DNA of 64,000 nucleotides from Elusimicrobiaceae bacterium. Its GTDB lineage: Bacteria; Elusimicrobiota; Elusimicrobia; Elusimicrobiales; Elusimicrobiaceae. The stretch spans positions 1-64,000 of the forward strand of contig JAFXVA010000013.1 of the NCBI GenBank assembly GCA_017534965.1, read 5' to 3'. The first letter of the stretch is position 1. Each line of letters begins with the position of its first letter. Under the pieces are notes generated by a model. The model saw only the letters and a program-made list of their open reading frames with translations. It did no database searches and had not been told where the DNA came from. Below are positions 4,758 to 24,098 of this stretch, piece by piece. A program made the translations under genes and the position numbers.

Positions 4758-4817
4758 AATGCCAATAAAAAATGCCCAGTACAGGATTTGAACCTGTGAC
4801 CTTTCCCATGTCAAGGG
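4758..4817. repeat. Left attachment site (60-bp direct repeat)
   Basis: These 60 bases are identical to 24012-24071. They correspond to the tRNA-Val anticodon stem-loop through the 3' end plus 15 bases of downstream flank. This copy is not attached to a tRNA 5' half, so it is the displaced original 3' end. The adjacent bases form an inverted pair, GTCAAGGG (4810-4817) and CCCCTTGAC (4824-4832), as expected for core-type integrase sites. Confidence 0.92.
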
Positions 4818-7939: not shown

Positions 7940-8944
7940 TCACTTTATAATATTCATAGGAATTAGTCCATCCATTACTTTCATTTTACTGGCAATTTCA
8001 CCTGTTTTAAAGCGCAAATAACGTTGTGTAGTAGTAATTTTACTATGTCCAAGTAATCTTTGTAAATACTCTAAACTTCCACCGCGATTTAAGAAATTAA
8101 CTGCAAATGAATGACGCATATCGTGTGGACGAATGTGCCCAACTCCAGATTTTTTAGATGCTTTATTAAGTTGATATTTAAGTTTATCTTCCGTTATTGT
8201 TGCAAATACAAGACCATTTTTTTGTGGATTTAATGTTTGTAAAATTGATTCAATATCAGTACTTAATCCCAATGCTCGCGGACGTTCTGTTTTTGTTTTC
8301 GGAATATAAATTGTTTTGCAGTTAAAATCAATATTTTCCCAACGAAGCCCTAATAATTCCTGCCTTCTTAATCCTGTATAAAAGCCAATAATTACACAAG
8401 GTCGCACTTCATCGCTGATAAATGGTAAAAGTTTCTGAATTTCCATTTCATTTATCGGATGAGGGTTGAAAGGTTCTTCAGGTTTTTTCTTGGCTTTACG
8501 GCAGGGATTTGGACCGCTATATTTATCCCAATCATTTAAACAATTAAAAAATTTACTAATGATTCCGAAGTACCTATTAGCATTTGCATAAGAAGTTTCC
8601 TCAGCTTTTTGATTGTAGAATGTTTGTACTTCCAATGGCGTTATTTCTTTTAATGTGTAATTACCAAAATGCTCTACAATTTTTTTAAACATAGCCAAAT
8701 ATGTTTTTTTTGAAGGTAACAGTTCTATATGACACTTAATAAATAAAGGAGCCATATCTTTAAATAGCTGGCTTTCTTGCATTAGTCGTTGGTCGTTTTT
8801 TGCTTTATAAAATAAGTTTGTGCGTTTGGCCAATTCTTCCTTAGCGGCAGATTCACTAGTCCCAACAATCTTACGATGTCGTTTCCCCGTCTTGTCATAA
8901 TAATCAATTCCGTAAAGGCCTTTTTTATTTCTATAAATTTTCAT
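7940..8944 (-). CDS. int: Tyrosine recombinase (integrase) of the island
   Basis: A 334-residue phage-type integrase. An N-terminal Arm-DNA-binding-like strand region (KKGLYGIDYYDKTGKRHRK) is followed by a SAM-like core-binding domain (about 60-165) and a catalytic domain. Arg I is in TGLRRQELLGLRW, the HxxR box is HDMRHSFAVNF, and LGHSKITTTQRYLRF supplies the second His and the nucleophilic Tyr. The ATG at 8944 is chosen over a TTG six bases upstream because AAGGA then sits at proper spacing. It should recombine the core sites in the tRNA-Val anticodon region. Two 19-bp repeats in its promoter region suggest control by the divergent ribbon-helix-helix protein. Confidence 0.95.
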   Translation of the reverse strand: MKIYRNKKGLYGIDYYDKTGKRHRKIVGTSESAAKEELAKRTNLFYKAKNDQRLMQESQLFKDMAPLFIKCHIELLPSKKTYLAMFKKIVEHFGNYTLKEITPLEVQTFYNQKAEETSYANANRYFGIISKFFNCLNDWDKYSGPNPCRKAKKKPEEPFNPHPINEMEIQKLLPFISDEVRPCVIIGFYTGLRRQELLGLRWENIDFNCKTIYIPKTKTERPRALGLSTDIESILQTLNPQKNGLVFATITEDKLKYQLNKASKKSGVGHIRPHDMRHSFAVNFLNRGGSLEYLQRLLGHSKITTTQRYLRFKTGEIASKMKVMDGLIPMNIIK

Positions 8945-8958
8945 ATTCAATATTCCTT

Positions 8959-9020
8959 AGTATTATATTATAATATTACATAATATTTAATCATATTGTC
9001 AAGTATTATATTTTAATATT
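8959..9020. promoter_or_regulatory. Paired 19-bp operators between int and the RHH gene
   Basis: AGTATTATATTATAATATT (8959-8977) and AGTATTATATTTTAATATT (9002-9020) differ at one base, are near-palindromic and start 43 bases apart in the divergent intergenic region. They are good candidates for binding by the 54-residue ribbon-helix-helix protein encoded alongside. Confidence 0.6.
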
Positions 9021-9045
9021 CAACAAAATTTGCTATTATATTTAT

Positions 9046-9210: not shown

Positions 9211-9221
9211 CTAAATTTTCA

Positions 9222-9428
9222 TTAAGAATGTCCGAAAGAAGGTTCTATAGAATCTTCCACCAGTTGTTCTATCTTCTCTCTTACAAAAAGAAGTTTTCCA
9301 AACAATTTTACAGTGCTACCTTTTGGGAACTCACCACGGGTTCTTTTAGAATAAACGGTTGCAGGTGATAGGTGTAAATAAGACGATACTTCTTTTACAT
9401 CCATTAAAGGGCTTACATTAGTTTTCAT
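9222..9428 (-). CDS. AlpA/excisionase-like helix-turn-helix protein
   Basis: A 68-residue protein with the winged-helix MerR/AlpA pattern: MDVKEVSSYLHLSPATVYSK, then a basic wing GEFPKGSTVKLFGKLLFVREKIEQLVED. Such proteins act as excisionases or activators of int in integrative elements. Its first codons overlap the end of the replication-initiator gene by 11 bases, so the two are probably translationally coupled. It is convergent with the RHH gene. Family assignment is firm; the excision role is inference. Confidence 0.85.
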   Translation of the reverse strand: MKTNVSPLMDVKEVSSYLHLSPATVYSKRTRGEFPKGSTVKLFGKLLFVREKIEQLVEDSIEPSFGHS

Positions 9429-10584
9429 TGTCTACGCCCTCTAAATTTTCAGTTTCCTGTATTACAGGGGTTTTAGTAGGTATAAAATTATTACTTTTAT
9501 ATCTATTTAATGTTTCTATAATACTATCTTTTGTAACATAATCATCAGAATATAGAGATTCTAATATAGTATCTTTGAATAGTCTTTCTTCAGGCATTCT
9601 AGAAAGATTGAGTTTTTTAAGTAGGTTTAAGTTATTCCTTACTTCTTTCAATGAATAATGTTGTTTTAAGTATTTACAATAATCAGAATAACCTAAAGTA
9701 TTAAACTTACAAACAGCACCAAATAAGGCATTTCTTTTTTGTAAACCATTATATTGTTTATGCATATCACAAAATTGCTCTACAGATGCTAAGTGTTTTA
9801 CCATATCATTTGAAATAGTAAAGAACCCTTCCAATACTTCAATAGTTCTATACTGTAAAATCTTTGAACAAGTTTCTCTATCAAATGCTGTTTCTAAAGT
9901 GTTAGGAAGATAACTTTTTATGAGTTTTAATTCTTCATCAATCGCCTTTTTATCATTCATTGCATATTCTAAATTTAGTAAACAATAACCATTTTGTTTA
10001 AATAATTGTGATAAATCTGTAGGCATACCATCCCATTTCATTGCTTCAGCCGTTTTATCATACATTTTAATACCTTTATGTTGAAAATTAAAATGCACAC
10101 ACCACCCATCTGATGTTTCATATGCTGAGTAACCTTTACGAGATTTAGCAGGTTGTGGAATATTATGAGTGCAAATCAATCGCAAAACAGAGGATGTAAA
10201 AGGAAGAAGGATAGGTTTATTTACGTCCCAACCAGATAAATAGTGGTTCCGTAATACCGATTCATCCGTTAAAATGCCTGCATATTCTAATTTTTCTACT
10301 AGCAGAGATAAAAAGCATTCCAAATCTTCTTCCTTAGTTTCGTAGATGTTCGTGCCATATAATAGTTTACTAGGGCAAACTTGAATTTCTGCTCTTTTAA
10401 TACCCGTATTATCAGCATATACGTGAATTGTTGGCATATAGTCATTGGAATTCCTATTAATATACACTTGTCTGAAACCTGTTCTTTCGACTTTATCCAA
10501 ATAGGCGTGTCTTAATGAACGCCCTTTTGAGAGCACCTCAAATTCCCAATTGTATAAGTTTATTCTTATTATATCTATAGACAT
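9418..10584 (-). CDS. Putative phage/plasmid replication initiator (gpII/X-like)
   Basis: A 388-residue protein. The segment AEIQVCPSKLLYGTNIYE followed by a helical region, LSGWDVNKPILLPF and GIKMYDKTAEAM resembles the II/X-family replication proteins of phages and small plasmids, where the conserved KIYDK-type motif lies in the rolling-circle nicking domain. An AAGGAG site precedes the ATG at 10584. It overlaps the AlpA-like gene. If correct, the element can replicate extrachromosomally after excision. The similarity is judged by eye and moderate; it could instead be another element-specific DNA-processing protein. Confidence 0.55.
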   Translation of the reverse strand: MSIDIIRINLYNWEFEVLSKGRSLRHAYLDKVERTGFRQVYINRNSNDYMPTIHVYADNTGIKRAEIQVCPSKLLYGTNIYETKEEDLECFLSLLVEKLEYAGILTDESVLRNHYLSGWDVNKPILLPFTSSVLRLICTHNIPQPAKSRKGYSAYETSDGWCVHFNFQHKGIKMYDKTAEAMKWDGMPTDLSQLFKQNGYCLLNLEYAMNDKKAIDEELKLIKSYLPNTLETAFDRETCSKILQYRTIEVLEGFFTISNDMVKHLASVEQFCDMHKQYNGLQKRNALFGAVCKFNTLGYSDYCKYLKQHYSLKEVRNNLNLLKKLNLSRMPEERLFKDTILESLYSDDYVTKDSIIETLNRYKSNNFIPTKTPVIQETENLEGVDNEN

Positions 10585-10805
10585 AATAACTCTCCTTAAA
10601 TTTGATCAGATTTTGTTCTGATGTTAAGATTTGAGTGGGTAAAAAATTATTACCCCCTCTACGTAATGTAAAAGTGTAAACATAACGCTGTTTTACAATA
10701 GGGATAAAATTCAGCAAAAAATCTTAAATAGGGTATTTTTCTTTTGAAATAGGGTTACTTGGCATATAAAACCAATAAAAATGATGTTTTTATGAAAAAA
10801 TAGCC
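10585..10805. other. Spacer upstream of rep: hairpins and AATAGGG repeats
   Basis: No gene. It contains the hairpins ATCAGA-ttttgt-TCTGAT (10605-10622) and GGGTAA...TTACCC (10637-10655), and three AATAGGG repeats (10697-10703, 10727-10733, 10748-10754). Next to a replication-initiator-like gene, this is the best place in the island for an origin, but direct evidence is lacking. Confidence 0.35.
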
Positions 10806-10834
10806 TTGTATATGCTTAATTCGCTAAATATGAT
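10806..10834 (+). promoter_or_regulatory. Promoter of the mod-res leader transcript
   Basis: TTGTAT (10806-10811) and TATGAT (10829-10834) at exactly 17 bases spacing; transcription would begin near 10841, just before an AAGGAG at 10859-10864. Confidence 0.65.
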
Positions 10835-10872
10835 AAGATAAAGGTATATTTTAGTTTTAAGGAGTAAATACA

Positions 10873-10980
10873 ATTTCAGTAGGTCCAAACGAAGGACCTG
10901 CTTACAAAATTAGTACTGTTTTTGGAGAGCATTTAGCTCGGACTTTTGTGAAAGCAAAAGGAATTACAAACCAGAAATAG
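10873..10980 (+). CDS. Possible 35-residue leader peptide (ATT start)
   Basis: An open frame of 35 codons starts with ATT eight bases after a strong AAGGAG (10859-10864). It reads SVGPNEGPAYKIST, then VFGEHLARTFVKAKGITNQK, and stops at TAG (10978-10980). The stop overlaps the first base of the AGTCGCC strand that pairs with the terminator's left arm, so ribosomes on this frame would reach into the closing helix of the leader RNA. ATT starts are rare but known (for example infC). It could also be a decayed gene whose ATG mutated. No homology is recognised. Confidence 0.4.
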   Translation: MSVGPNEGPAYKISTVFGEHLARTFVKAKGITNQK

Positions 10981-11116
10981 TCGCCATTTGCTAGTAAAAC
11001 GGCCTAATTACCCGTTTAACTGGCAGCAAACCCTGTATTTGATGCAATATCGGTATGGGTAGGCGGCTTTTGTTTGGGTCCTTGTAATTCCTCAAGCATA
11101 AGTCGCCTTTTTTATT
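10959..11116 (+). ncRNA. Structured attenuator leader upstream of mod
   Basis: AGGAATTACAA (10959-10969) is perfectly complementary to TTGTAATTCCT (11082-11092). Inside this, AGTCGCC (10979-10985) pairs with GGCGGCT (11062-11068), a hairpin GCTAGT-A-AAACGG...CCGTTT-A-ACTGGC (10990-11024) forms, and ACCC/GGGT (11030-11033, 11057-11060) closes a third arm. Alternatively GGCGGCTT (11062-11069) pairs with AAGTCGCC (11100-11107) just before a six-T run, an intrinsic terminator. The two AGTCGCC copies compete for one partner, the standard antiterminator/terminator switch. I cannot match it to a known riboswitch class. Confidence 0.7.
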
Positions 11117-11155
11117 GCTCTCCGTAAAGTCTTAAAAGTTTTTGTGGAGGACAAT

Positions 11156-13189
11156 ATGAAATCATTAATTGAAGAATTACCGAAAATTATTGCAGAAGGG
11201 AAAAAAGAAGTAATTAAAATACTTGAAAATTTAGAAGGAAGGCATAAAATTACACTCCAAACAAATGAATATGTTCTTCCTGTAGAAAAAGGGAACCAAC
11301 TATATCAGAAAACGGTCATTAGACCTTCACAAAGCGAATGGCTAAATCGATTGTGTTATGGGGATAATTTATTTGTTATGCAAGCATTACTCGCAGGAGA
11401 CCAATCTACAGGACTACCTTCTATGCGTAAGTGTATTGACTTGATTTATATTGACCCTCCATTTGATAGTAAGGCAGATTATCGTAGTAAAATTACATTA
11501 CCAGGAACAGAAGTCTCTTTAACTCCTACTACAGCTGAACAAGTAGCCTACTCTGACACTTGGAGAGATGGAACAGTTAGTTACTTAAAAATGATGTATC
11601 CAAGATTAGTATTAATGAAAGAATTATTGTCTGATAAAGGTAGTCTTTATGTTCATCTAGATTGGCACGTAGGACATTATGTCAAAATATTATTGGATGA
11701 TATATTTGGTAAAGATAAATTTGTAAATGAAATAGTCTGGCAACGAACTGGAGCACAAAATAACGCAAGGTCGTATGGTATTAACTATGATACTATTTTA
11801 GTATATAGAGTAACAGAAGATTATATTTGGAATCCTCAATTTACGCCATATACTGAAGAAGATATTCAAGAATATTTTTCAGTTGACCCGATAAATGGTA
11901 AATTATATCGAAAAAATAATCCTACTGGTCAAGGATACCAACATCATACACGTAATTTCGGAAAAGGAGAAATATATCCTCCACAGGGACGCCATTGGTC
12001 TATTGACCAGGAAGAAATAAATAGATTATTAAAAGAAGACAGAATTATATTTACACGTTCAGGATATCCTTTCATTAAGAAATATATTGATGAATTACCT
12101 GGGCGTAATATTCAAAGTATTTGGACAGATTGTATTCCTCCACGAAAAAGTTCGGAGTTAACAGGATATGCTACTCAAAAACCTGAGAAATTATTAGAGC
12201 GTATTATTAGAGCTTCATCTAATGAAAATTCTATAGTAGCTGATTTCTTTGCAGGGAGTGGCACAACAGGGGCAGTAGCAGAAAAATTAGGTAGACGTTG
12301 GATTATGAGTGATATGGGTAAACCTGCTACAATGATTATGCGTAAGAGGTTCGTAGATATTCCTGCTAAACCTTTTTTATATCAATGTATAGGAGATTAC
12401 CAACAAGAAGTTTTTGCTTCCAATAAAATTTTTAAACGCGTAGGAGATTTAGCCCAGGTTGTTCTTAATTTATTTGGAGCCATTCCTTTATCTAATGAAG
12501 AAAGCCAACGAAATTTAGGCTATATTAAAGACTCTCATACACTTGATGTAGTTGATAGCCCAAACCGTATAACAGGAGAAAATATTATCAACAAAGCTAT
12601 AGAACTAAAAGAACGAGATGGTTGGAATAAAGTTATTGTTTTGGGATGGAATTTTGCATTTAATATAGTTGATATTATCCGTAATACGAACAATCCCTCA
12701 TTGGAAGTACAAGTAATTCCACCCGATTTAATAGATAAACTACGTAGTAAAACTAATTACAAAAAATTGATAGAAAATAAACAAATTCGTTTCGTTACTT
12801 TGCAATATATTAGTTTGCAAAAACCATTTGTTGAATCTAAAAATAGTACAGAAGAAACCCTACACGTGGAATTAAAAAATTATTGTATGCTTTCTCCAGA
12901 AGCACTTCCATTAGATGAAAAAGGAAAAGAACAAATACAAAAATTTGTAGATAAAGACCCTCTTGCACTTATTGAGTATTGGAGTGTGGACCCTAATTAC
13001 GATGGAGAGACCTTTCATAGTCAATGGCAGGATTATCGAGAAAATACTGAACATAATGATAATAATTTGCGTGTGGTTACAAAGGCAATTTTTGATGTTC
13101 CTAAACTGCCTGATGGCCAAAAGCGTAAAATCTGTGTTAAAGCAGTAGATGTATTTGGATTAGAAAGTGTAGTAGTGGAAGAAATTTAG
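11156..13189 (+). CDS. mod: Type III restriction-modification methyltransferase (Mod)
   Basis: A 677-residue N6-adenine methyltransferase of the beta class. The catalytic motif DPPF (about residue 100, in [13 protein letters not shown]) precedes the SAM-binding FAGSG motif (about 365, in [18 protein letters not shown]). Between them lies the variable target-recognition region. The ATG at 11156 is chosen because GGAGG sits five bases upstream; an in-frame GTG at 11144 would overlap that site. Mod methylates one strand of the recognition sequence and supplies specificity to Res. It is preceded by an attenuator-like leader and followed after eight bases by res, so the pair is one operon. Confidence 0.95.
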
Positions 13190-13197
13190 GAGAAATT

Positions 13198-16113
13198 ATG
13201 ATAAAAAAACAACAAAATAAAACTAAAGATTTGCCATTGCAATTTGCCCAACAACTTTCCACGCTAGTAAACACAGAATGGGAAAATGGAAATTTTCTTA
13301 AAAAAGTAACTCCTATTACACAAGAACTCTTAAAATTCTGGTTTACTAGTTCTTTTGCAGATAATCGTATGACCAATTTTCATAAGGGACAGAAACAAGC
13401 AATTTTAAATACAATTTATTGTCACGAAATCCTTAAAACCAAGAACACTTTAGAATTGTATCAAACTTCCAGTAACGGATTATTAGATAATAAGGGATTG
13501 TATAATACTTTGATGGAAGATAAATACTCATATCCCAAGTATTGTATCAAAATGGCAACTGGAACTGGGAAGACGTGGGTGTTGAATGCTTTGTTGATTT
13601 GGCAGATGTTAAACGCCAAAAATCCGATAGATAATGGTGTAATTTATACTAAAAACTTTTTGCTAGTTGCACCTGGAGTAATTGTTTATGAACGTTTACT
13701 AGATACCTTATTGGGCAAAGAACAATCTGATGGGAAACGGGATTTTTTAACATCTGATATAAAAAAATATCAAGATTTATTTATACCTATACGTTTTCGT
13801 GATACAGTATTTGCTTTTGTTCAAAACAACGTAGTAAAAAAAGAAGAAATTGGACATAAAATTACTGGAGATGGAATTATTGCAGTCGCCAATTGGCATC
13901 AAGTTAAAGATGATAATAAAAATATAGAACAAGAAAAAACAGATTCAATCTTGGACCCTACTGAATGTATAAATGAAATCATTCCAATAAGACCAGGCTC
14001 TGATAATGGACATTCTTTGGATGTTTTTGACACCGCATATCTTAGAGAAGATAAATTGAAGTTTTTATCTAATTTGCCAAATTTATGCGTGTTTAATGAT
14101 GAAGCACATCATTTATATGGATTATCTAAAAAAGAAGAAGATTTAGAATGGCAAAAATCTATTGATAAACTGGCAAAAAACCATAAAGGATATTTTATTC
14201 AAGTAGATTTTACCGCAACACCTTATCATAATAGTTCTAATTCTAGATATCGCGCAGGTAAACAAGGCAGAAAAACCCAACCGATAAAAGATTATTTTCC
14301 ACACATAATTGTAGATTTTGATTTAAAAAGTGCTATTAATAATAGCCTTGTTAAAATTATTGGTATTGATAAACGTGAAGAATGGGCTAGTATTTCTAAT
14401 GATGATTTAAATTTTAAATCCATTAGGGATAATGGTAAAGTTATTGCTATTTCGCCTGGACAACGTTTAATGCTAAAAGCGGGTTTAGCAAAATTAAAAA
14501 CATTGGAAGAAGAATTTATAAAAAAAGACGAAAGTAAACATCCTAAAATGTTAGTAATGTGTGAAGATACTTCTGTATCACCATTTATTGTCGATTTTTT
14601 GCGCCAGGAAGGATTAGAGGAAAAAGATATTTTGCAAATTGATTCTAATAAAAAAGGTGAAGTATCTCAAGAAGATTGGGATAAAATTAAACAAAAATTA
14701 TTTAATATTGATAAAATGTCTTCTCCAAAAGTTATAGTATCAGTACTAATGTTGAGGGAAGGTTTTGATGTAAATAATATTTGTGTTATAGTGCCTTTAC
14801 GTTCAGCTCAATCTTCTGTATTACTAGAACAAACTGTTGGAAGAGGATTGCGTTTAATGTGGAGAGAGCCAGTTTATTTTGATATTCATCAAGAAAACTT
14901 AGAGAAATTAAAACGACACGAAATGCCTGATAACCGTTTAGATGTTTTAAGCATTATTGAGCATCCTGCTTTTATGCAATTTTATAAAGAATTAGAAGAT
15001 GGTCTTGTAGTAGAAGAGAGGGGGGCGCCCAAACGAGAAAATATTTTAGGAGACATAATTACAGTAGGCTTAAAAAATGATTATAAAAAATATGATTTGT
15101 TTTTTCCACAAATTATAAAAGAACAGGACGAAGTTCTTAAATCTGAAGAATTAAATGTTCAAAAATTACGGCCGTTTAATGGATATTCTATTGAACAGTT
15201 AAAACAATTTGTAGCTAATCGTACGGAAGAGCAGTTTTATACACAAGATTTAGTTACAGAAACACGTTTTGGGAAATACAAAGTATCAGTAGATTTATTT
15301 TCTGCAAGTGGATATAATGATTTCTTAATTAAGATTATAGGGTGTATTACACAAAATGTAGTTGGTAGAACTAAATATCCTGTAATGAGTATTAATAGAG
15401 TATCTTTACTACGAATGTTAGATAATTATATTAGACATACTCTGTTTAACACAGAATTTAATCCAACAGAAGGAAACAACTGGAGGATATTAATGTTAGT
15501 TGAGAAAGGAATTATTCAACATATTATGATACAAATTAGTCAAATTATCTATGATATGCAAAATAATGTTTTACAGGAAGAGGCAGTAGTAATTAAAAAT
15601 TGGTTTTCAGATGTTTCGAGTATAAAAATGCGCGATAATTTCTCATTAGGTATTCAAAAATCAATTTATATTAAAACGCAATACCCTTCCAATAAAGGTG
15701 ATTTCGAGAAAAATTTTATGCAATTTGCCGATAGAGACAGTGATGTGAAGAAATTGATAAAAATAGACCCTAATTACCATCTTTTTTGTGCTCTGAGATA
15801 TGTAAGTGCAGATGGTTTGTTAAGAAGTTATTTTCCTGATTTTATAGTACAAATAGGAAAAGAAATATTTCTAGTAGAAACCAAGGCTCAAAAAGATATA
15901 GATAATGTGAATGTTCAACAAAAAGAAAAAAGCGCATTATCTTGGTGTAAACAGGTCAACTCTCTTAAATCTGAAGACAGAATGGATTGTATTTGGAATT
16001 ATGTAATATTAGATGAGAAATCTTTCTATCAAGATAAATTAAAAGGAAATCTTTTTCAAATTTTAACATCTAAAAAACTTACTAGAAAAAAGGTAGAAAA
16101 TAGTTTATTCTAA
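13198..16113 (+). CDS. res: Type III restriction endonuclease subunit (Res)
   Basis: A 971-residue SF2 helicase-nuclease. Walker A is ATGTGKT (about residues 119-125), the DEAH box is FNDEAHHLYG (about 299-308), motif III-like VDFTATPYHN and motif VI VGRGLRLMWREP follow. A C-terminal PD-(D/E)xK nuclease has its Asp in YFPDFIVQ (about 880) and the ExK in FLVETKAQ (about 892). Res cleaves DNA after ATP-dependent communication between two inversely oriented Mod-recognised sites. All helicase and nuclease residues look intact, so the system should be active. AGGAG precedes the ATG. Length and domain order match the family. Confidence 0.95.
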   Translation: MIKKQQNKTKDLPLQFAQQLSTLVNTEWENGNFLKKVTPITQELLKFWFTSSFADNRMTNFHKGQKQAILNTIYCHEILKTKNTLELYQTSSNGLLDNKGLYNTLMEDKYSYPKYCIKMATGTGKTWVLNALLIWQMLNAKNPIDNGVIYTKNFLLVAPGVIVYERLLDTLLGKEQSDGKRDFLTSDIKKYQDLFIPIRFRDTVFAFVQNNVVKKEEIGHKITGDGIIAVANWHQVKDDNKNIEQEKTDSILDPTECINEIIPIRPGSDNGHSLDVFDTAYLREDKLKFLSNLPNLCVFNDEAHHLYGLSKKEEDLEWQKSIDKLAKNHKGYFIQVDFTATPYHNSSNSRYRAGKQGRKTQPIKDYFPHIIVDFDLKSAINNSLVKIIGIDKREEWASISNDDLNFKSIRDNGKVIAISPGQRLMLKAGLAKLKTLEEEFIKKDESKHPKMLVMCEDTSVSPFIVDFLRQEGLEEKDILQIDSNKKGEVSQEDWDKIKQKLFNIDKMSSPKVIVSVLMLREGFDVNNICVIVPLRSAQSSVLLEQTVGRGLRLMWREPVYFDIHQENLEKLKRHEMPDNRLDVLSIIEHPAFMQFYKELEDGLVVEERGAPKRENILGDIITVGLKNDYKKYDLFFPQIIKEQDEVLKSEELNVQKLRPFNGYSIEQLKQFVANRTEEQFYTQDLVTETRFGKYKVSVDLFSASGYNDFLIKIIGCITQNVVGRTKYPVMSINRVSLLRMLDNYIRHTLFNTEFNPTEGNNWRILMLVEKGIIQHIMIQISQIIYDMQNNVLQEEAVVIKNWFSDVSSIKMRDNFSLGIQKSIYIKTQYPSNKGDFEKNFMQFADRDSDVKKLIKIDPNYHLFCALRYVSADGLLRSYFPDFIVQIGKEIFLVETKAQKDIDNVNVQQKEKSALSWCKQVNSLKSEDRMDCIWNYVILDEKSFYQDKLKGNLFQILTSKKLTRKKVENSLF

Positions 16114-16172
16114 TTATATAAATAATTAACAGCAAAAAAACTATAAAATCTCATTTTTTACGCAAAGTGGAC

Positions 16173-16204
16173 TTGACAAATCCATCTGAAAATGCTATTA
16201 TAAT
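16173..16204 (+). promoter_or_regulatory. Strong extended -10 promoter of the ClpX-like operon
   Basis: TTGACA (16173-16178, full consensus) and TATTAT (16196-16201) at 17 bases spacing, with an extended TGc just before the -10 (TATAAT at 16199-16204 is an alternative register). Transcription would start near 16208 and include the riboswitch-like leader. Confidence 0.8.
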
Positions 16205-16287
16205 ATTATAAGCTAGGATAAAAAGGCACAAAAAGCCATTTTTATCGTTTTTTTGAAAATTATAGCGTTATTTTATTAAAAAATAAC

Positions 16288-16430
16288 GATTCCATTAAGA
16301 GTGTACGAGGGACAAGCCCGTTGACTACACAGCAACCTACCCAAAGGGCAAGGTGCTAAAGCTTGAACGATGGGAACTAAAACAAATTTGCAGTAAGCAG
16401 GACCCATCGGAGACGATGGGTCTTTTTTTA
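16288..16430 (+). ncRNA. SAM-I-clan riboswitch-like leader with terminator
   Basis: The conserved S-box core is visible in order: AAGAG (16297-16301), GAGGGAC and GCCCG (16307-16320), P2 arms GTGTA/TACAC (16301-16305, 16325-16329), AGCAACC (16330-16336), short P3 TACCC-aaa-GGGCA and AAGGTGCTAAA (16350-16360). A P1 helix can form between ATTCCATT (16289-16296) and GATGGGAA (16369-16376). The same 3' strand CGATGGG (16368-16374) can instead pair with CCCATCG (16403-16409), an antiterminator that competes with the perfect terminator GACCCATCG-gaga-CGATGGGTC plus seven Ts (16401-16429). P4 is short or absent, as in SAM-IV or SAM-I/IV variants. Known logic: SAM bound gives termination, low SAM gives read-through. 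Confidence 0.7.
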
Positions 16431-16469
16431 TTCTCTCCGATGGCTAAATTAACAAAGGAGAGTTTTTTT

Positions 16470-16601
16470 ATGACAAAAAAACACAAACAACAAAAAAATA
16501 ATAGAACAATCTGGGTATTGGGCAATAGCTATTTTAAAAAAGAGCCGATGAAGGAAGATTCTTTTGGCTATTCCGATTGGGAAATTTATTACGGAGTTTA
16601 A
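16470..16601 (+). CDS. 43-residue peptide, first gene of the ClpX-like operon
   Basis: A short basic-then-acidic peptide: MTKKHKQQKNN, TIWVLGNSYFKKEP and an aromatic C-terminus YSDWEIYYGV. It has a consensus AAAGGAGAG site, six bases of which (16457-16462) can pair with CTCTCC (16433-16438), so initiation may be restrained. It is the first gene after the riboswitch-like leader and lies 18 bases before the ClpX-like gene. It has no recognised family. It could be an adaptor or substrate tag for the unfoldase; that is speculation based on position and on the exposed hydrophobic C-terminus. Confidence 0.65.
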   Translation: MTKKHKQQKNNRTIWVLGNSYFKKEPMKEDSFGYSDWEIYYGV

Positions 16602-16619
16602 TTTAAAAGGATAATAATT

Positions 16620-17990
16620 ATGGAAAATAAAACTAAAAAAATTACGAAATATACTTCACGCGCAGAGTTAATAGAAGATATAGTAAATTGGAACGATATC
16701 TCTGTTTCTGCCTGTAAGGAAGCAGAGTATATTCAAACTCTTAAAGATATTCACACTCGCTTGTTGCGTTCCGATGGTAAAAAATTACCACTGGCCGAAT
16801 TTATTCAAAAAAACAAATTATCACAAGTGGAACTATTTTTACTGCTTCGCATATCTATATTGTGTTTGCAGCGTTTGTTAAATTCCAGTTTCTTTCAAAT
16901 ACCTAGTTTACTCACCAAAGGACAAATTTTTGGGACACGACAAGAAGTATTATCTATCTTATTAGACCATAAAAGTGTATTATTTACGGAAGGCATTTTT
17001 ACAAGTATAGGCGATAGAATAGAATTAAAGAGAAATTTCCTTGTTTTACCTGTTTCAAAGAAACCTAAAACTAAAAAACGCACTTTAAACCCTAAGCGTG
17101 TTTTAGCAGAACTTAACAAATATGTAATCGGGCAAGATGAAGCCAAAAAGAAATTAGTAGCAGGTGTTTTTGAGCATTTAACCAAATGTGCTAGTGCCAA
17201 AGACGGACAATTTTTTAATAAGAGCAATATCTTTATTAGCGGACCTACGGGAACAGGCAAAACTTATATGTGCCAATGCTTAGCAAGAATACTTAAAATA
17301 CCTTTTATTCACGCTGATGCCAGTCAATATACTCAGACAGGTTATGTCGGTATGGATGTAAGTGATATTTTACGCCCTCTTATTTCACACGCTTCAGCAG
17401 GCAAAATGCCTATAGCTATAGTTTTTATTGATGAAATAGATAAAATACGCCAAGGAAGTGAAAGTCACGGTGGGGCTGCTTCCACAAATGTCCAAGTAGA
17501 ACTTTTACGCCTTATAGAAAGCACTCGTTTTCGTTTGCAGGATAGAAGTTTTATTAGAAATGTTATGAATTTTGATATTTCCAAAGTACTTTTTATAGTC
17601 GGCGGTGCCTTTGAAAGTTTGCAAGTTAAACACGCTGATAAAAGTGTCGGTTTTACGCACGCACCTATTGTTAAAAAGGAAACTTTGACAGCAGATGATT
17701 TTATTGCCTATGGGATGTTACCTGAATTAATAGGCCGTTTTTCATACTTCGTCCAGTTAAAAGGGCTTGAAAAGGAAGATTTACGCAAAATATTATTTAA
17801 CCCGCATAATGGGCCTTTGCAACAGTATAAGGACTTATTGCATACATCCAATAAGGTATCCCCCAAAACCCTTGAAACCTTGCTAAACAATGCTTGTGAG
17901 CGACATCTAGGTGCAAGAGGGTTGCATCAGCAAGTCGGGCAATTATTCCAAACGCAATTTTTGGAAAAAGCAGTTCAAATTGAAATATAA
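16620..17990 (+). CDS. ClpX-like AAA+ unfoldase lacking the zinc-binding domain
   Basis: A 456-residue protein whose AAA+ module (about 155-450) follows ClpX closely. It has Walker A GPTGTGKT (about 208-215), the pore loop TGYVGMDVSDIL (about 239), Walker B IVFIDEIDKI (about 266), a sensor-1 region VLFIVGGAFESL, the VGF tripeptide at about 342 where ClpX has the ClpP-docking IGF loop, LPELIGRFSYFVQL and sensor-2 GARGLHQQV (about 430). The first 150 residues are unrelated to the ClpX zinc finger and probably provide a different substrate selector. It may unfold targets for the host ClpP. It sits in an operon with a 43-aa peptide, a LemA-like protein and a membrane TPR protein. Confidence 0.9.
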   Translation: MENKTKKITKYTSRAELIEDIVNWNDISVSACKEAEYIQTLKDIHTRLLRSDGKKLPLAEFIQKNKLSQVELFLLLRISILCLQRLLNSSFFQIPSLLTKGQIFGTRQEVLSILLDHKSVLFTEGIFTSIGDRIELKRNFLVLPVSKKPKTKKRTLNPKRVLAELNKYVIGQDEAKKKLVAGVFEHLTKCASAKDGQFFNKSNIFISGPTGTGKTYMCQCLARILKIPFIHADASQYTQTGYVGMDVSDILRPLISHASAGKMPIAIVFIDEIDKIRQGSESHGGAASTNVQVELLRLIESTRFRLQDRSFIRNVMNFDISKVLFIVGGAFESLQVKHADKSVGFTHAPIVKKETLTADDFIAYGMLPELIGRFSYFVQLKGLEKEDLRKILFNPHNGPLQQYKDLLHTSNKVSPKTLETLLNNACERHLGARGLHQQVGQLFQTQFLEKAVQIEI

Positions 17991-18001
17991 GGAGAATAAA
18001 A

Positions 18002-18499
18002 ATGACAGGAATATTAGTAGTTGTTGTACTCTTAGTAGTATTTGCAGTAGGATATTTCATTTCCGTAAACAATACGGAAATTCGCCTTCGCAATCTTGTT
18101 AAAGCACAGCAAGAAGTATGTGAGGCCAACTTTGATAAAATGTGGAAGGTAATTAAGCAAATTACAAATGTGTCTGATACATATTTAAATGCCTTTAAGG
18201 AAATTTACCCCAAACTTATTGAAGGGCGTTATCAAGGCAAAGATATTTCATTTATCGTAGAGCATAACCCGCCTTTAGATACCTCGGTTTTACAGCAACT
18301 TGCAACTGCTATAGAAATCAATCGCGAGGAGTTTTTCAGCCATCAAAGATTACTTGTCGCCCGTCATAATGAGCATAAAACATTTATTCAAAGTTTCCCT
18401 GCTAATATTTTATTGCCTAATGCTAAAGAAATCAAAATTACAGTCATTAAATCTGACCATACGGCAGATGTTTATGCCACAGGCAAGGAGAATATTTAA
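18002..18499 (+). CDS. LemA-like membrane-anchored protein
   Basis: A 165-residue protein with one N-terminal transmembrane helix (about residues 3-23) and a helical region (NTEIRLRNLVKAQQEVCEANFDKMWKVI in two halves) that matches the LemA/phage LemA-like pattern of an N-out anchor followed by a long helical bundle. A conserved-looking EHNPPLDTSVLQQLATAIE segment follows. Function in the family is poorly known. An AAGGAG site precedes the ATG. The stop overlaps the next start (TAATG), so it is translationally coupled to the membrane TPR protein, and the two probably form a complex. Confidence 0.75.
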   Translation: MTGILVVVVLLVVFAVGYFISVNNTEIRLRNLVKAQQEVCEANFDKMWKVIKQITNVSDTYLNAFKEIYPKLIEGRYQGKDISFIVEHNPPLDTSVLQQLATAIEINREEFFSHQRLLVARHNEHKTFIQSFPANILLPNAKEIKITVIKSDHTADVYATGKENI

Positions 18500-20079
18500 T
18501 GGTTATTGCATTTATATATGCACTTTGTTTTCTGTTGATAGTGCCACCTTTAATGGGTTGGGAATCACTCGGTATTTTAGGTATTGTGGTCGGTTCTATT
18601 TGTGCTTGGATTATTATTGGGATAGCGAAAGCTTTTGAATCGGAAAAAGTTCAAGATGAAGAAATACTCGGCACTTATGTAACCGAAGCGCGTTATTATG
18701 AACCTTGGACCGAAAAAATAAAACACGAAGACGAAGAAACAAAAGAAGTAACCTATGAAATAGTTGAGCACGAAGAAGAATGGGAAATTACCGTAGCCGA
18801 AGGCGATAGTTTCCCTATTGACGAAGAACGATATAAACAATATGTGGAGATATTCGGCAATGAGGAAGAAGATTATGTAGACCACGAATTGGAAGCCGAA
18901 GGCGAGATTATAGAATCAGGTTCTTGTTTCGTAACCGAGTGGCCTGGTACTTTTGATACAGTCTGTTATGAATATGTGCATCGCTCTTATAAAAATCCTA
19001 TTTTAAAGGGTTCCAATGTGTATGAAAGTGAAAAGTTAACCGAGGAAGATATTAAAAAATATCACTTAGTTAAATATGGTGAAATGTCCGTTTACGGTAC
19101 AGCCCGAGATAAAGATGATGCGTGGGAATTAAGCAGTAAACTAGACGAATATAACTGTTGGTTTCGTGAAAAGAATATAAAACTTAATTTTATTTTGCTT
19201 AAAAATGCTAAATCTACCCAAGCTATGTTTTGGCAACAATATTGGCAAAACGGTAAACGCAATACCATTAATGCTGTAGTCGGGATTAATGATGAACGTA
19301 AAATTGAGTGGGCACACGTTTTCGGTTGGCAAAATGAAGCCGTGTGTATTAAACTCCGTAATTTTATTGCAGGATTAGATAAATTATCAGATATTACACT
19401 CAATTTCAATAAAGCAGAAGAAATCTTGCAAAAAAATTATAAAGTGCCAGATTTTAAGCAATACGATTTCGTGCAAGGTCAATTCCCTTTAAAAGGTGTG
19501 ATTATTTCCTTAACGGTATGCCTTGTGATATTTTGCGGTTTATTTTGCCGTCCACCGCAGTATCAGGACCGTGCTTGCCACCATATTGTAGAAGGAAATT
19601 ATGACTTAGCAAAAAATGAATTGAGGAAACATCTTTCAAAATATCCCGAAGATGCTATTGCTCTAAATAATCTTGGAGTATTGCATTTCCGTGATAAACA
19701 ATTTGAAGATGCAGAGGTCTTTCTTTCACGTGCAGTAGAAAAGTCAGAGCTAATAGCCGATGATAATGCCGCAAGCATATACCGAAACCGTGGGACTTTG
19801 TATCGTGAAACAAATAGAAATAAAGAGGCTATTGTAGATTATAAAAAGTCTATTGAGAAGTATCACGCTACGAAATCTTATTGCATCCTTTATCGGTTAT
19901 ATAAGGACCTTGGATATAAAAAATCAATATGGGCTTTGCGAAAGAAATACGAAAATTATACTTATAGAGAACTTAAAGAAGATTGCGAAAGTGATGAAGA
20001 CCAAGTAACTTTCTTAATGGACTACGCAGATGCAATAGAAGGTCGTGGTTTTATGCGGTTAATTAATAGTTCATTCTAG
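18499..20079 (+). CDS. Membrane protein with TPR domain, partner of LemA-like protein
   Basis: A 526-residue protein with two N-terminal transmembrane helices (about 2-20 and 24-44). A strongly acidic, beta-rich domain of about 290 residues follows (EEETKEVTYEIVEHEEEW early in it), then a third helix (about 334-354, IISLTVCLVIFCGLFC) and a C-terminal TPR region (NYDLAKNELRKHLSKYPED, ALNNLGVLHFRDKQFEDAE). No enzyme motif is visible. Its start overlaps the LemA-like stop. The composition suggests a membrane scaffold whose soluble parts bind partners, perhaps the LemA-like protein and the ClpX-like unfoldase. The family is not recognised. Confidence 0.8.
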   Translation: MVIAFIYALCFLLIVPPLMGWESLGILGIVVGSICAWIIIGIAKAFESEKVQDEEILGTYVTEARYYEPWTEKIKHEDEETKEVTYEIVEHEEEWEITVAEGDSFPIDEERYKQYVEIFGNEEEDYVDHELEAEGEIIESGSCFVTEWPGTFDTVCYEYVHRSYKNPILKGSNVYESEKLTEEDIKKYHLVKYGEMSVYGTARDKDDAWELSSKLDEYNCWFREKNIKLNFILLKNAKSTQAMFWQQYWQNGKRNTINAVVGINDERKIEWAHVFGWQNEAVCIKLRNFIAGLDKLSDITLNFNKAEEILQKNYKVPDFKQYDFVQGQFPLKGVIISLTVCLVIFCGLFCRPPQYQDRACHHIVEGNYDLAKNELRKHLSKYPEDAIALNNLGVLHFRDKQFEDAEVFLSRAVEKSELIADDNAASIYRNRGTLYRETNRNKEAIVDYKKSIEKYHATKSYCILYRLYKDLGYKKSIWALRKKYENYTYRELKEDCESDEDQVTFLMDYADAIEGRGFMRLINSSF

Positions 20080-20157
20080 AAGATTAAAAAATGACTTGCG
20101 ATTTTTTAAAAAAACATATAATTTGATATACTACAATAGAATATTAAATAAAAAGTC

Positions 20158-20221
20158 TAAAAAATTTCTGTAAAAATTTTAAAGGGATAAGTTTTTATAA
20201 AATTTTTCAGAAAAATTTTTA
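20158..20221. repeat. 24-bp inverted repeat between the ClpX-like operon and ietA
   Basis: Arms 20158-20181 and 20198-20221 are complementary over 24 bases with two mismatches around a 16-base loop. It may act as the operon's terminator, although no clean T-run follows. The rest of the 332-base spacer holds only the ietA promoter. Confidence 0.6.
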
Positions 20222-20350
20222 AGCTAACTCTTTTTAAAAAAATAAGATTTTATTTTTGCAACATTATCAACTGTCATAGGCCGCTACCTTTGGCTAACCT
20301 TATTTTTGCCAAGCGAAACATAGCCGCTAATATTAACTTGTTTTTAGTAT

Positions 20351-20393
20351 TTTTGTCCCAATACTTGATTTTTTGTCCCATTTCTGCTATACT
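20351..20393 (+). promoter_or_regulatory. ietA promoter with two TTTTGTCCCA boxes
   Basis: TTGATT (20365-20370) and TATACT (20388-20393) are spaced by 17 bases with an extended TGc. TTTTGTCCCA occurs at 20351-20360 and 20371-20380, exactly 20 bases apart, one box upstream of the -35 and one inside the spacer. That geometry suggests a repressor binding the same face of the helix. Confidence 0.7.
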
Positions 20394-20411
20394 TATAAAA
20401 AGGGATGAGCT

Positions 20412-21449
20412 ATGAAAAAGAAAAATATATTAAATCTTATAAAATATTATGCAGAAAAAAATGATGCTGCGTTCAGAAATGAAGCATATGAAATTGCTCA
20501 ATATTTCGATAAAAACAATGATACACAATTATCTGAATATATTATGGCATTACTTTCAGATGCTCATACCCTTTCTCCTCAAAAAAGTCCAATGTCTTTT
20601 AAATTTATTAAAGCACTAGATTTACATACAGATTCATTACCATTACCAAATGAGATTAGAGATAAAATCTTAGGAGTTTTAAATGCAATAGGACATAATG
20701 TAGGTGTTAATAAATTTTTATTTGTGGGAGCTCCTGGAACTGGAAAAACAGAAACTGCAAAGCAAGTAGCACGCATTTTAAACCGAAAATTATTCGTAGT
20801 TAATTTTGATATTATCATAGATAGCAGATTAGGACAGACTGTTAAAAATATTGCTTTAATGTTTGAAGAATTAAAAACACTTCCTAATCCTGAAGAAGCA
20901 ATTATTTTAATGGATGAAATAGATGCTATTGCTATGGATAGAATTAACCAAAACGATTTGCGGGAAATGGGCAGAGCTACTTCCGCAGTTTTGAAAGGAT
21001 TAGATTCTTTTAATGAAAAACTAGTGTTAATTGCCACAACTAATTTACATAAATTATTTGATAAAGCATTAATTAGACGCTTTGACTCTGTTATTGACTT
21101 TAGCGCATATTCTCAAGAGGATTTGTTACTAATTGCAGAATCCCTTTTAAATAAATTTTTAGTTAGATTTAAATTTGCAGGAAGAAATATTTGTTTGTTT
21201 AGAAAAATAATTAAAAGTATGTCCCCTATTCCCTTTCCAGCAGAATTGAAAAACTTAATTCGCACATCCTTAGCTTTTAGTTCTTCTGAAGATGAGTTTG
21301 ATTATCTGAGACGCCTTTATTTTTCAATTCATCCAAATAAAAATATATCATTGAGATATTTACAGAAACAAGGATTTACAGTTCGTGAAATAGAAATATT
21401 AACAGGCGTTTCTAAAAGTTCTGTTTCTCGTGAATTAAAGGGATTATAA
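20412..21449 (+). CDS. ietA: AAA+ ATPase of an IetAS-type system
   Basis: A 345-residue ATPase with Walker A GAPGTGKT (about residues 108-115), Walker B ILMDEIDA (about 166), a sensor-1 segment VLIATTNL and the arginine finger in ALIRRFDSVIDF. The C-terminus contains a helix-turn-helix-like stretch (TVREIEILTGVSKSSVSREL). It lies two bases before a subtilisin-like protease gene; this AAA ATPase/S8 protease pair is the IetA-IetS arrangement known from plasmid maintenance and anti-phage defence surveys. The ATPase probably senses or remodels a trigger and gates the protease. Its own promoter carries a doubled operator-like box. Confidence 0.88.
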   Translation: MKKKNILNLIKYYAEKNDAAFRNEAYEIAQYFDKNNDTQLSEYIMALLSDAHTLSPQKSPMSFKFIKALDLHTDSLPLPNEIRDKILGVLNAIGHNVGVNKFLFVGAPGTGKTETAKQVARILNRKLFVVNFDIIIDSRLGQTVKNIALMFEELKTLPNPEEAIILMDEIDAIAMDRINQNDLREMGRATSAVLKGLDSFNEKLVLIATTNLHKLFDKALIRRFDSVIDFSAYSQEDLLLIAESLLNKFLVRFKFAGRNICLFRKIIKSMSPIPFPAELKNLIRTSLAFSSSEDEFDYLRRLYFSIHPNKNISLRYLQKQGFTVREIEILTGVSKSSVSRELKGL

Positions 21450-21451
21450 TC

Positions 21452-23674
21452 GTGAATAAGGTACTATATTTAAAAGGAACATTTGACCAAGCATCTCGTA
21501 CTAACAAAATGGGACCTGCTAATATCCCTGCAAAAGAATCTCTAAATATCAATAGAGTGCAGAGTTTGTTATCAGATTTAGAGCGTTTATATTTATACTG
21601 GCAAGAAAATCAACAAATAATTAAAGGTGCTCTAATTAGTGTATATTACATCAAGCTAGCCGCAAAAACTAATAGAATTAAGTGTTTACTTACTTCAAAG
21701 TCTTCTGTCTCTCCTAATCAATCAATTGTAGGTGCAAGGTTTTACAATGATATTAGCCAAAAACACATTATTACACACTTCGTTTCTTTGTCTACTATAG
21801 AAAAAACAATAAATATACTAAAAAAATGTGTTAAAGTATTAAATTTTTCTAGATTTAATGGAACCATTACACATTCACAAATTGATTCAATTAATAAAAA
21901 TATTATTAGAATTTCTGGAGTACAAATTTCAAAAAGCCAATTTGTAAATGCAATAGTTGATTGTTATTATGTACAAAAATTTAATATTTTCACATCAGAT
22001 GTGCCTACTAATCAAGAAGCAATTATAACTTTATATAATACAGGAGTGCAAACTGCAGAAATGCTTGAAAAATTAGGAATCGAGGCACCAGAAAGTCGTA
22101 TTTTAAAGGATAGCAACACTGTTTTATTAACACCAAAACAAATTTCTTTATTGCAACAGAAAGCTCCTTTTTTAATAGCTATGGCAGTTAGTGACTTAAA
22201 TAACATTACAAAGGAAAATTTTATATCTAATCGAAACACCTTATTTACTATTCCACATCCTACTAATGAACCTACTATTGGAGTAATTGATACTTTATTT
22301 GATAAACGAGTTTATTTTTCCGAATGGGTTGATTATCGAGAAATGATAGATATTAATATTCCCAGAGAGCAAGAAGACTATGTACACGGTACAGCTGTTT
22401 CTTCTATTATTGTAGATGGGCCTTCTTCCAACCCTCAATTAAACGATAATTGCGGACGATTTAAAGTGAGACATTTCGGGGTGGCTACAGGTAAACAATT
22501 TAGTTCTTTTACTATTCTGCGAAAAATTCAAGAAATTGTGACACAAAATCCAGATATTAAAGTATGGAATCTCTGTCTTGGGTCTAAAACAGAGGTTAAT
22601 CTTAATTCAATTTCTCCTGAAGCGGCAATTTTAGATAAAATACAATATGATAATGATGTCGTCTTTGTTATTGCAGGAACTAACAAAACTGAAAAAAATG
22701 TAGTTAGATTAGGGGCTCCTGCTGATTCTATAAATTCCGTAGTAGTTAATTCAGTCTCTTTTAATAACAAACCTGCTAACTATAGTAGACGCGGGCCTGT
22801 ATTGTCATTTTTTGAAAAACCAGATATTAGTTGCTATGGTGGAGATAGTACACAAAAAATTAGAGTTTGTACACCTACAGGAGAATCTTTTGTTTCAGGA
22901 ACATCTTTTGCTGCTCCGTGGATTTCTAGGAAATTATGTTATCTAATTGAAGTTTTAGGATTAAACCGTGAATTAGCCAAAGCTTTACTTTTACACTCAG
23001 CAACTACTTGGGACTCTCAAACTAATGAAATGTCTAATTTAATAGGATATGGCATCGTTCCTACAGATATAAATAACATCGTTAATAGTAGTAATGATGA
23101 AATTCGATTTATGTTAACTGGAAAATCAGAAACATATAACACTTATACATATAAACTTCCTATACCAGCATATAATGGTAAACATCCTTTTATTACAAAA
23201 GCCACTCTATGCTATTTCCCTTTGTGTTCGCGCAATCAGGGAGTAGATTATACCAATACAGAACTAGACATTCAATTCGGTCGAATAGATGAAACAATAA
23301 AACCAATAAATAATAATTATCAATCAGAACCAGGACATCATACATTGGAAGCAGAAGCAAGAAAATATTTTAAAAAATGGAATAATGTAAAACATATTAG
23401 AGAAAAATCTACTGGTAGGAACCAAGGGAAAAAAGCATATCAAACAGGTCTTTGGGGGTTAAGTTTAAAGAGAACTGAGCGTTTAGATAGTCGATTTGAA
23501 CGTGGGATTAATTTCGGAGTGATTATTTCTCTTAAACATATAAAGGGCGAAAATAAAATAGAAGATTTTATTCAAAATTGTCAATTAAAAGGTTGGTTGG
23601 TTAATAATATAGATGTAAATAATCAAGTAGAAATTTACAATAAAGCAGAACAGGAAGTAGTTTTTGACGACTAA
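21452..23674 (+). CDS. ietS: Subtilisin-like (S8) protease of an IetAS-type system
   Basis: A 740-residue protein beginning at GTG, two bases after the ietA stop. A roughly 260-residue N-terminal domain of unknown fold precedes a peptidase S8 domain with the full catalytic triad: Asp in GVIDTLFD (about 279), His in VHGTAVSS (about 311) and Ser in SGTSFAAPW (about 485). A C-terminal beta-rich region of about 200 residues follows. There is no signal peptide, so it acts in the cytoplasm. Together with the ATPase it should form a regulated intracellular protease. Substrates are unknown. It is the last gene before the right attachment site. Confidence 0.9.
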   Translation: MNKVLYLKGTFDQASRTNKMGPANIPAKESLNINRVQSLLSDLERLYLYWQENQQIIKGALISVYYIKLAAKTNRIKCLLTSKSSVSPNQSIVGARFYNDISQKHIITHFVSLSTIEKTINILKKCVKVLNFSRFNGTITHSQIDSINKNIIRISGVQISKSQFVNAIVDCYYVQKFNIFTSDVPTNQEAIITLYNTGVQTAEMLEKLGIEAPESRILKDSNTVLLTPKQISLLQQKAPFLIAMAVSDLNNITKENFISNRNTLFTIPHPTNEPTIGVIDTLFDKRVYFSEWVDYREMIDINIPREQEDYVHGTAVSSIIVDGPSSNPQLNDNCGRFKVRHFGVATGKQFSSFTILRKIQEIVTQNPDIKVWNLCLGSKTEVNLNSISPEAAILDKIQYDNDVVFVIAGTNKTEKNVVRLGAPADSINSVVVNSVSFNNKPANYSRRGPVLSFFEKPDISCYGGDSTQKIRVCTPTGESFVSGTSFAAPWISRKLCYLIEVLGLNRELAKALLLHSATTWDSQTNEMSNLIGYGIVPTDINNIVNSSNDEIRFMLTGKSETYNTYTYKLPIPAYNGKHPFITKATLCYFPLCSRNQGVDYTNTELDIQFGRIDETIKPINNNYQSEPGHHTLEAEARKYFKKWNNVKHIREKSTGRNQGKKAYQTGLWGLSLKRTERLDSRFERGINFGVIISLKHIKGENKIEDFIQNCQLKGWLVNNIDVNNQVEIYNKAEQEVVFDD

Positions 23675-24011
23675 TTAATCTTAGTAAGAAATAAATTATA
23701 AAACTTCTTCTCTCTTTTTTCAGGCTATTTTCCTATATATCCCTTTTAAATGTTATGAGAAATTGTAATTGAAGTATATATTTAATTATTCACCTTTCCC
23801 GCGGAAATTGGGCCTTTCAGACGTATTTACTTTTTTAAAATTGCCAAATAAAGAGCACAAAAAGATATTTTTGTCCTCATAAAACGCATTGCCAAAATAT
23901 TGACAATAAAACTACAAAAACCTGCAAAAACGCGCAAAAAATGGCCTTTTTAACGCTTAGGTCAAAAAAGCCATAAAATAGGTAAAAAATAATAAATCTT
24001 CGTCGTAAAAT
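23675..24011. other. Right end of the island: recombination-type repeats, no gene
   Basis: No credible gene. It holds an almost perfect palindrome GAGcACAAAAA-GATA-TTTTTGTcCTC (23853-23878), the second copy of the 21-bp palindromic repeat (23888-23908), and a TCGTCGtaAAAAT-like motif (24000-24010) that resembles TCGTCGagAAAAT just inside the left end (4845-4857). These are plausible binding sites for integrase and accessory proteins. Confidence 0.5.
23888..23908. repeat. Candidate integrase arm site, right
   Basis: Identical over 21 bases to 4883-4903 and in the same orientation; it is an imperfect palindrome 103 bases from the right core site. Confidence 0.55.
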
Positions 24012-24071
24012 AATGCCAATAAAAAATGCCCAGTACAGGATTTGAACCTGTGACCTTTCCCATGTCAAGGG
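24012..24071. repeat. Right attachment site (60-bp direct repeat)
   Basis: Identical to 4758-4817. This copy rebuilds the 3' half of the functional tRNA-Val, so the element restores the tRNA gene it entered. Confidence 0.92.
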
Positions 24072-24098
24072 AACGCGCTACCACTGCGCCAACTGGGC
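24027..24098 (-). tRNA. tRNA-Val(GAC)
   Basis: A complete cloverleaf on the minus strand: acceptor GCCCAGT/ACTGGGC with discriminator A, D arm GCGC...GCGC, anticodon arm TTCCC-TTGACAT-GGGAA giving anticodon GAC, variable loop AGGTC and T arm ACAGG-TTCAAAT-CCTGT. CCA is not encoded. Its 3' half is supplied by the integrated element. Confidence 0.97.

Follow-up and report, generated by a model that had tools for sequence, protein, structure and literature searches.

A four-gene operon was found downstream of an S-adenosylmethionine (SAM) riboswitch in the genome of an Elusimicrobiaceae bacterium (GCA_017534965.1), a draft of 1.32 Mb in 47 contigs that is 96.5% complete. The stretch of DNA analyzed, hereafter called the window, comprises 64,000 nucleotides (nt) of contig JAFXVA010000013.1 (positions 1 to 64,000, forward strand). 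The operon encodes a 43-amino-acid (43-aa) protein, a ClpX-like AAA+ unfoldase, and two membrane proteins of 165 and 526 aa, the second of which ends in tetratricopeptide repeats (TPRs). All genomes compared here are drafts, and genes were called as the longest open reading frames (ORFs). The leader and genes of the operon, in window coordinates, are as follows.

16173..16201, + strand: sigma-70-type promoter, TTGACA-17-TATTAT, with 11 of 12 consensus bases.
16266..16288, + strand: hairpin CGTTATTTTATTAAAAAATAACG, the probable remnant (closing helix) of an RNA domain of about 120 nt present in relatives.
16289..16376, + strand: SAM-I (S-box) riboswitch aptamer, RF00162, 61.4 bits, E value of 8e-12 over 64 kb.
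16368..16374, + strand: P1 3' strand CGATGGG, the antiterminator arm, complementary to the terminator 5' arm CCCATCG at 16403-16409.
16400..16429, + strand: intrinsic terminator, a 10-bp stem (16400-16423) followed by a U-run.
16433..16462, + strand: second hairpin, CTCTCC...GGAGAG, over the Shine-Dalgarno sequence of the 43-aa ORF (predicted fold).
16470..16601, + strand: 43-aa protein with a conserved C terminus and a ratio of nonsynonymous to synonymous substitution rates (dN/dS) of <1.
16620..17990, + strand: ClpX-like AAA+ unfoldase with its own helical N-domain and no zinc finger.
17646..17654, + strand: VGF tripeptide, residues 343-345 of the unfoldase, at the position of the ClpX IGF loop.
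18002..18499, + strand: 165-aa protein with one N-terminal membrane helix, phage family phrog_1383 (3.7e-30).
18499..20079, + strand: 526-aa membrane protein with N-terminal membrane helices, a beta domain (phrog_2087 type), a helix at residues 331-349, and C-terminal TPRs.

An earlier note on this DNA, made from the sequence alone, had described a SAM-riboswitch-like leader driving four tightly packed genes from one strong promoter, and each part of that description was borne out. The promoter at 16173-16201 is near consensus, and the genes are separated by 18 bp (43-aa to ClpX-like) and 11 bp (ClpX-like to 165-aa), with a 1-bp overlap between the 165-aa and 526-aa genes. The leader is a true SAM-I riboswitch, matching RF00162 over its full length (model positions 1 to 108) at 61.4 bits, above the gathering threshold of 44.4. 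Judged from base complementarity, its expression platform is an S-box OFF switch, in which the P1 3' strand would compete with the terminator 5' arm. The complementarity of these two elements is kept across loci with compensatory changes (CGATGGG/CCCATCG in the window, CAATGGG/CCCATTG and AGATGGG/CCCATCT elsewhere), and because the pairing changes in step across relatives, the switch is under selection. The RF00162 score, the recurrence of the element in the family, and the covarying P1/terminator pairing rule out a chance match. The leader might instead be an old element that now serves as a general-purpose promoter and terminator and has ceased to report SAM in a useful manner, as its occurrence before many unrelated genes and the loss of part of it in the window could suggest. 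This is very improbable, however, given that the aptamer core is strongly conserved over 35 matches in the family and that the compensatory changes indicate selection on the switch itself.

Near-consensus promoters are also found upstream of nearly all relatives' leaders, and a ribosome-binding-site hairpin similar to that of the window is predicted in most of their loci. Twelve loci (L040-L061) carry a conserved RNA domain of about 120 nt between promoter and aptamer, with a closing helix (CGTTATT/AATAACG) and the further helices GGAAGA/TCTTCC and CCAATTCC/GGGATTGG. Two-sided changes were seen in 6 of its 22 base pairs, with weak covariation and weak folding energy, and the domain is presented as a lead only; a search of Rfam with it returned no family. 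The window leader has probably lost this domain, of which the closing hairpin alone would remain.

Conservation of the operon was surveyed in 90 genomes of the family, counting the N-domain of the ClpX-like protein at a score of at least 221 bits. The N-domain was found in 17 of the 90 genomes, and a SAM riboswitch lies directly upstream in 17 of 17. Eleven of these carriers also have the 165-aa gene, and the TPR gene is complete or near-complete in 10, while in the eleventh it runs off the contig. The earlier note would have been refuted by a lack of conservation of the gene set outside this genome, but the set recurs in two genera. Its named carriers are Elusimicrobiaceae metagenome-assembled genomes from rumen and gut. 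Comparison of genomes G055 and G011 revealed a mosaic of divergence (96% for the leader, 74% for the clpX-like gene, and 89% for the rest). These values, which are also those for loci L040 and L041, together with the insertion of the N-domain paralogue and a lipoprotein gene in L040, suggest recombination or diversifying selection on clpX.

Control of methionine metabolism is the textbook role of SAM-I riboswitches. The riboswitch of the window is the sole SAM riboswitch match in its genome, and metK is located elsewhere (C28), not under a SAM riboswitch. Downstream genes were inspected at 33 of the 35 riboswitch loci of the family, and no methionine or SAM gene was recognized after the riboswitch at any of the 33. 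The family riboswitches that do not lead a ClpX-type operon precede a zinc-ribbon protein (a 304-aa family, five or six loci), the N-domain paralogue alone, or 297-aa membrane, 140-aa, and 158-aa proteins. The main rival explanation of the operon, a starvation response, is best weighed here. It holds that low SAM during methionine or sulfur shortage induces the operon, that the ClpX-like protein and ClpP, with the membrane partners, remodel or recycle proteins, and that the island on which the operon lies (described below) is incidental. A standard OFF switch of a class that normally reports methionine and SAM supply speaks for this explanation; a protease-linked unfoldase suits amino acid recycling, and Bacteroidales carry the membrane pair as an ordinary module of the chromosome. 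The genomic distribution argues the other way, with the operon in only 17 of 90 genomes and on integrative islands that also hold defense genes. The lack of a SAM riboswitch before metK, the lack of recognized methionine genes after 33 riboswitches, and WYL control, which is typical of conflict loci, also count against a starvation response, and we regard it as unlikely.

Three further observations concern other riboswitch loci. In several of them (among L045, L051, L053, L054, L059, L060, and L062-L071), the -10 box is immediately preceded by a palindrome such as ACGACAACcTGTTGTCG. The 140-aa protein, which is the first gene product after the riboswitch in L066 and L069, matches AbiJ_NTD5 at 3.9e-5, just below the Pfam cutoff. 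The same aptamer (57.1 bits) was found on a 34.7-kb phage contig, IMGVR_UViG_3300001598_000126 (L220:1415-1498), before a gene for a 231-aa protein. Judged by eye from the translations, genes nearby encode a Dam-like methylase and an integrase-like protein.

The first gene of the operon encodes the 43-aa protein, whose C terminus, FGY(N/S)DW(D/E)IY(H/Y)G, is conserved in 11 loci and for which all pairs that allowed an estimate gave a dN/dS below 1. Because of these two properties the ORF is real, and they rule out a chance ORF. Divergent small ORFs take its place in G073, G053, G014, and G052, and in G042 and G044 it appears to be broken or to lack a start.

The second gene had been read in the earlier note as an unfoldase with the pore and sensor motifs of ClpX, a VGF tripeptide where ClpX docks ClpP, and a foreign N-terminal domain, and the present analysis agrees. 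The protein contains Walker A and B motifs, a GYxG pore loop (the third residue of which varies among relatives), the sensor-2 motif GARGL, and the [VI]GF loop. In all 10 aligned sequences the GF of this loop is invariant and the first position is V or I, with the loop otherwise variable. The NCBIfam ClpX model matches residues 147-443 only, at 225 bits, which is below its 359-bit cutoff, and the other ClpX equivalog comparison gave 193 bits against a cutoff of 371. A domain search gave no match to the C4 zinc-binding domain (zinc finger) in the protein. The missing zinc domain and the sub-cutoff scores rule out a canonical ClpX. The N-domain found in its place was modeled as mostly helical, with a predicted local distance difference test (pLDDT) score of 82, and has no significant match in the PDB; a stand-alone paralogue of it (hhalign, 96%) is the next gene in many relatives.

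The source genome encodes ClpP, as do most members of the genus. A search of 18 genus genomes returned no canonical ClpX, which leaves the operon protein as the only ClpX-type unfoldase found there. Because of this, and because the [VI]GF loop is conserved, ClpP is a likely partner of the ClpX-like protein, which would dock through this loop. A ClpB/ClpC-type ATPase of 827 aa, encoded elsewhere in the window (34487-36970), is a possible other partner of ClpP.

The remaining two genes encode the membrane proteins. The label LemA-like, which the earlier note had given to the 165-aa protein, is not supported. Pfam LemA (PF04011) gave no match to the window protein and was absent from the matches listed for 36 family members, and profile-profile comparison of the family with true LemA (hhalign) reached a probability of 54% over the N-terminal 67 columns only. 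On these results and a PDB sequence search, assignment to the LemA family was rejected; the genome encodes true LemA proteins at other loci. The earlier description of the 526-aa product as a membrane TPR protein was, on the other hand, correct: membrane segments were found, and the C terminus matches TPR_1 at 3.4e-11, above the Pfam cutoff, as well as TPR structures in Foldseek. In its structure model (pLDDT of 86), the TPR part alone was matched among solved structures, and the beta domain had no match there. Proteins of the phrog_1383 and phrog_2087 types occur as an adjacent pair in about 40 Bacteroidales genomes and on many large-phage contigs (L088-L127, L128-L159). In the megaphage Lak-B5 of Prevotella (L076:3789-6486), the phrog_1383 gene is preceded, at a distance of about 0.9 kb, by a true zinc-finger ClpX gene.

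The operon is part of an integrated island of 19.2 kb (window 4818-24011), the landmarks of which are as follows.

4758..4817: attL, the left copy of a perfect 60-bp direct repeat, which holds the last 45 bp of tRNA-Val; identified by the exact repeat and by the boundary against sibling genomes.
7940..8950, - strand: island tyrosine integrase (PF00589, 3.2e-25).
11144..16113, + strand: type III restriction-modification (R-M) genes, Mod and Res, directly upstream of the operon.
20412..23674, + strand: IetAS defense pair (AAA ATPase and S8 peptidase), downstream of the operon.
24012..24071: attR, the right copy of the 60-bp repeat (exact), overlapping tRNA-Val(gac) at 24027-24098 (- strand).

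The 60-bp att repeats and the integrase, together with the empty site in sibling genome G074, where the left flank runs straight into tRNA-Val, prove that the island is integrative. Its cargo comprises Schlafen-AlbA_2, Fic, the integrase, a 388-aa protein, type III Mod/Res, the riboswitch operon, and IetAS, and the earlier placement of the operon between two known defense systems on a mobile island is therefore confirmed. The closest carrier element in another genus was found in G053, where Fic (81%), an integrase adjoining the operon that is 81% identical to that of the window, a regulator, the riboswitch operon, type III Mod/Res, and a SIR2 protein are present. Proteins of 388 aa (window 9418-10584, - strand) and 358 aa (L047:13669-14745) adjoin the integrase in the two islands; neither has a match in Pfam, and they are perhaps replication proteins of the element.

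With integrase, type III R-M, and operon traveling together in two genera, the module might be selfish or phage derived, serving the mobile element or a former phage (in virion or host takeover, entry exclusion, or element maintenance) and not host defense. Two phage families that occur together in large phages, phrog_1383 and phrog_2087, include the 165-aa protein and the N-terminal portion of the TPR protein, respectively, and the same riboswitch motif lies on a phage contig. We nevertheless consider this explanation quite unlikely, since the N-domain of the ClpX-like protein had no match in 2.9 million viral contigs, no virion genes were recognized in the island, and the membrane pair also occurs in about 40 Bacteroidales chromosomes. 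A phage origin of the operon as a whole was rejected on the same N-domain result and because the ClpX neighbor in Lak-B5 is a true ClpX.

That a conserved gene unit on a mobile, defense-bearing island is controlled by a SAM-I OFF switch is the part of our reading, derived from comparative sequence analysis, that we hold with high confidence. More tentatively, we interpret the operon as a SAM-gated mobile-island module that would most likely serve inducible defense or damage control. A more specific proposal, which we put forward as speculative and doubtful, is that infection would be sensed through the metabolite riboswitch and that the operon would provide bacterial immunity by guarding the SAM pool, with a WYL repressor as backup in most carriers. 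In the main interpretation, the aptamer would form at normal SAM levels and transcription would stop. Upon a collapse of SAM, for example through its destruction or consumption by an infecting phage, which would disarm SAM-dependent R-M, the antiterminator would form and the operon would be expressed. A hexamer of the ClpX-like protein would then, with host ClpP, unfold or degrade targets chosen by its own N-domain with the help of the small protein, and the two membrane proteins would anchor the complex at the membrane. Phage SAMases exist as a counter-defense to restriction (PMC7877911), and such destruction of SAM would be a natural trigger; methionine starvation would also serve.

Gene neighborhoods are consistent with a role in defense. 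Neighbor proteins of 15 ClpX-type loci were compared, using PADLOC models, with those of 15 control stretches from the same genomes. WYL matches were found in 12 of 114 neighbor proteins and in 1 of 114 control proteins, although these are not independent events because most of the WYL genes are homologous to each other. A homologous helix-turn-helix (HTH)-WYL gene is located 0.25 to 0.3 kb upstream of the riboswitch in 11 loci, and in a further three that position is taken by a divergent HTH gene. The near-perfect promoters of relatives are flanked by palindromes like GACATTTAAATGTC; that of the window is degenerate, and by comparison with most of its relatives the window has lost the upstream regulator gene. 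WYL regulators have been tied to BREX, CRISPR, and other defense loci (PMC9122601). PADLOC models matched numbered 314 for neighbors of non-ClpX riboswitch loci (among them DrmD, BrxH, AbiL, and HmaA), 135 for those of ClpX-type loci, and 25 for controls, counts that are a rough guide only because the models are redundant. R-M genes are directly beside five riboswitch loci, namely, those of the window, G073 (Eco57I type), G053 (type III), G010b (type I HsdR), and G011b (C5 methylase and HNH). We also count the patchy presence in 17 of 90 genomes and the mosaic divergence in favor of defense.

Beyond these limits on the WYL enrichment and on the model counts, several findings weigh against a defense role. 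Among PADLOC defense models, only weak AAA-domain matches were obtained for the ClpX-like protein and none that were meaningful for the other operon proteins. The WYL gene is absent in the window and also in G055, G011, and G052. Several relatives' operons are in ordinary chromosomal settings, with no integrase recognized within 10 kb. In Bacteroidales the membrane pair stands alone among housekeeping genes, which argues against a defense-only role of the pair.

The only SAM-I riboswitch of this genome is located on a mobile island and governs no methionine metabolism; under its control is instead a conserved gene system that has not been described. Were low SAM to signal infection to the cell, the locus would represent, as far as our literature searches reach, the first immunity gated by a metabolite riboswitch. 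In the literature searched, no paper joining SAM riboswitches with Elusimicrobia was found, and among papers that combine riboswitch and anti-phage terms, no such system is described in titles and abstracts. If true, the proposal would explain an asymmetry, in that phages attack the SAM pool, yet we know of no sensor by which hosts detect this. Should starvation be the signal, SAM supply would still be tied by this locus to a lone ClpX-type unfoldase in a lineage in which no other ClpX was found.

The gene system as a whole is new, its regulatory parts are of known kinds, and its function is one that we infer. The leader is like other SAM-I (S-box) riboswitches (RF00162) in aptamer core, P1, and terminator OFF platform. 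In contrast to that class, it precedes a mobile-island operon without methionine or SAM genes and has an extra ribosome-binding-site hairpin, and some relatives have an added upstream RNA domain. With the ClpX of ClpXP, the operon protein shares the AAA+ module, Walker A and B, a GYxG-type pore loop, GARGL, and [VI]GF at the ClpP-docking position. It differs from ClpX in lacking the zinc-binding domain, in its own helical N-domain, in a shortened loop around GF, in the loss of the RKH loop, and in a score below the equivalog cutoff. The membrane proteins resemble the phrog_1383/phrog_2087 pair of PTm1, phage G, and other large phages in being neighboring single-pass helical and membrane beta-domain proteins, but the second operon protein adds C-terminal TPRs and the pair is joined to a ClpX-like gene and a riboswitch. 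Most relatives are like the WYL-regulated defense loci (BrxR/BREX, CapW/CBASS, and Sll7009/CRISPR) in having an adjacent HTH-WYL or HTH gene, inverted repeats at the promoter, and defense neighbors. Unlike those loci, they have a metabolite riboswitch as a second layer and effectors that match no known defense system, and in the window the regulator is absent. IetAS and type III R-M share the island with the operon, but they are separate genes with their own spacing, outside the unit that the riboswitch controls.

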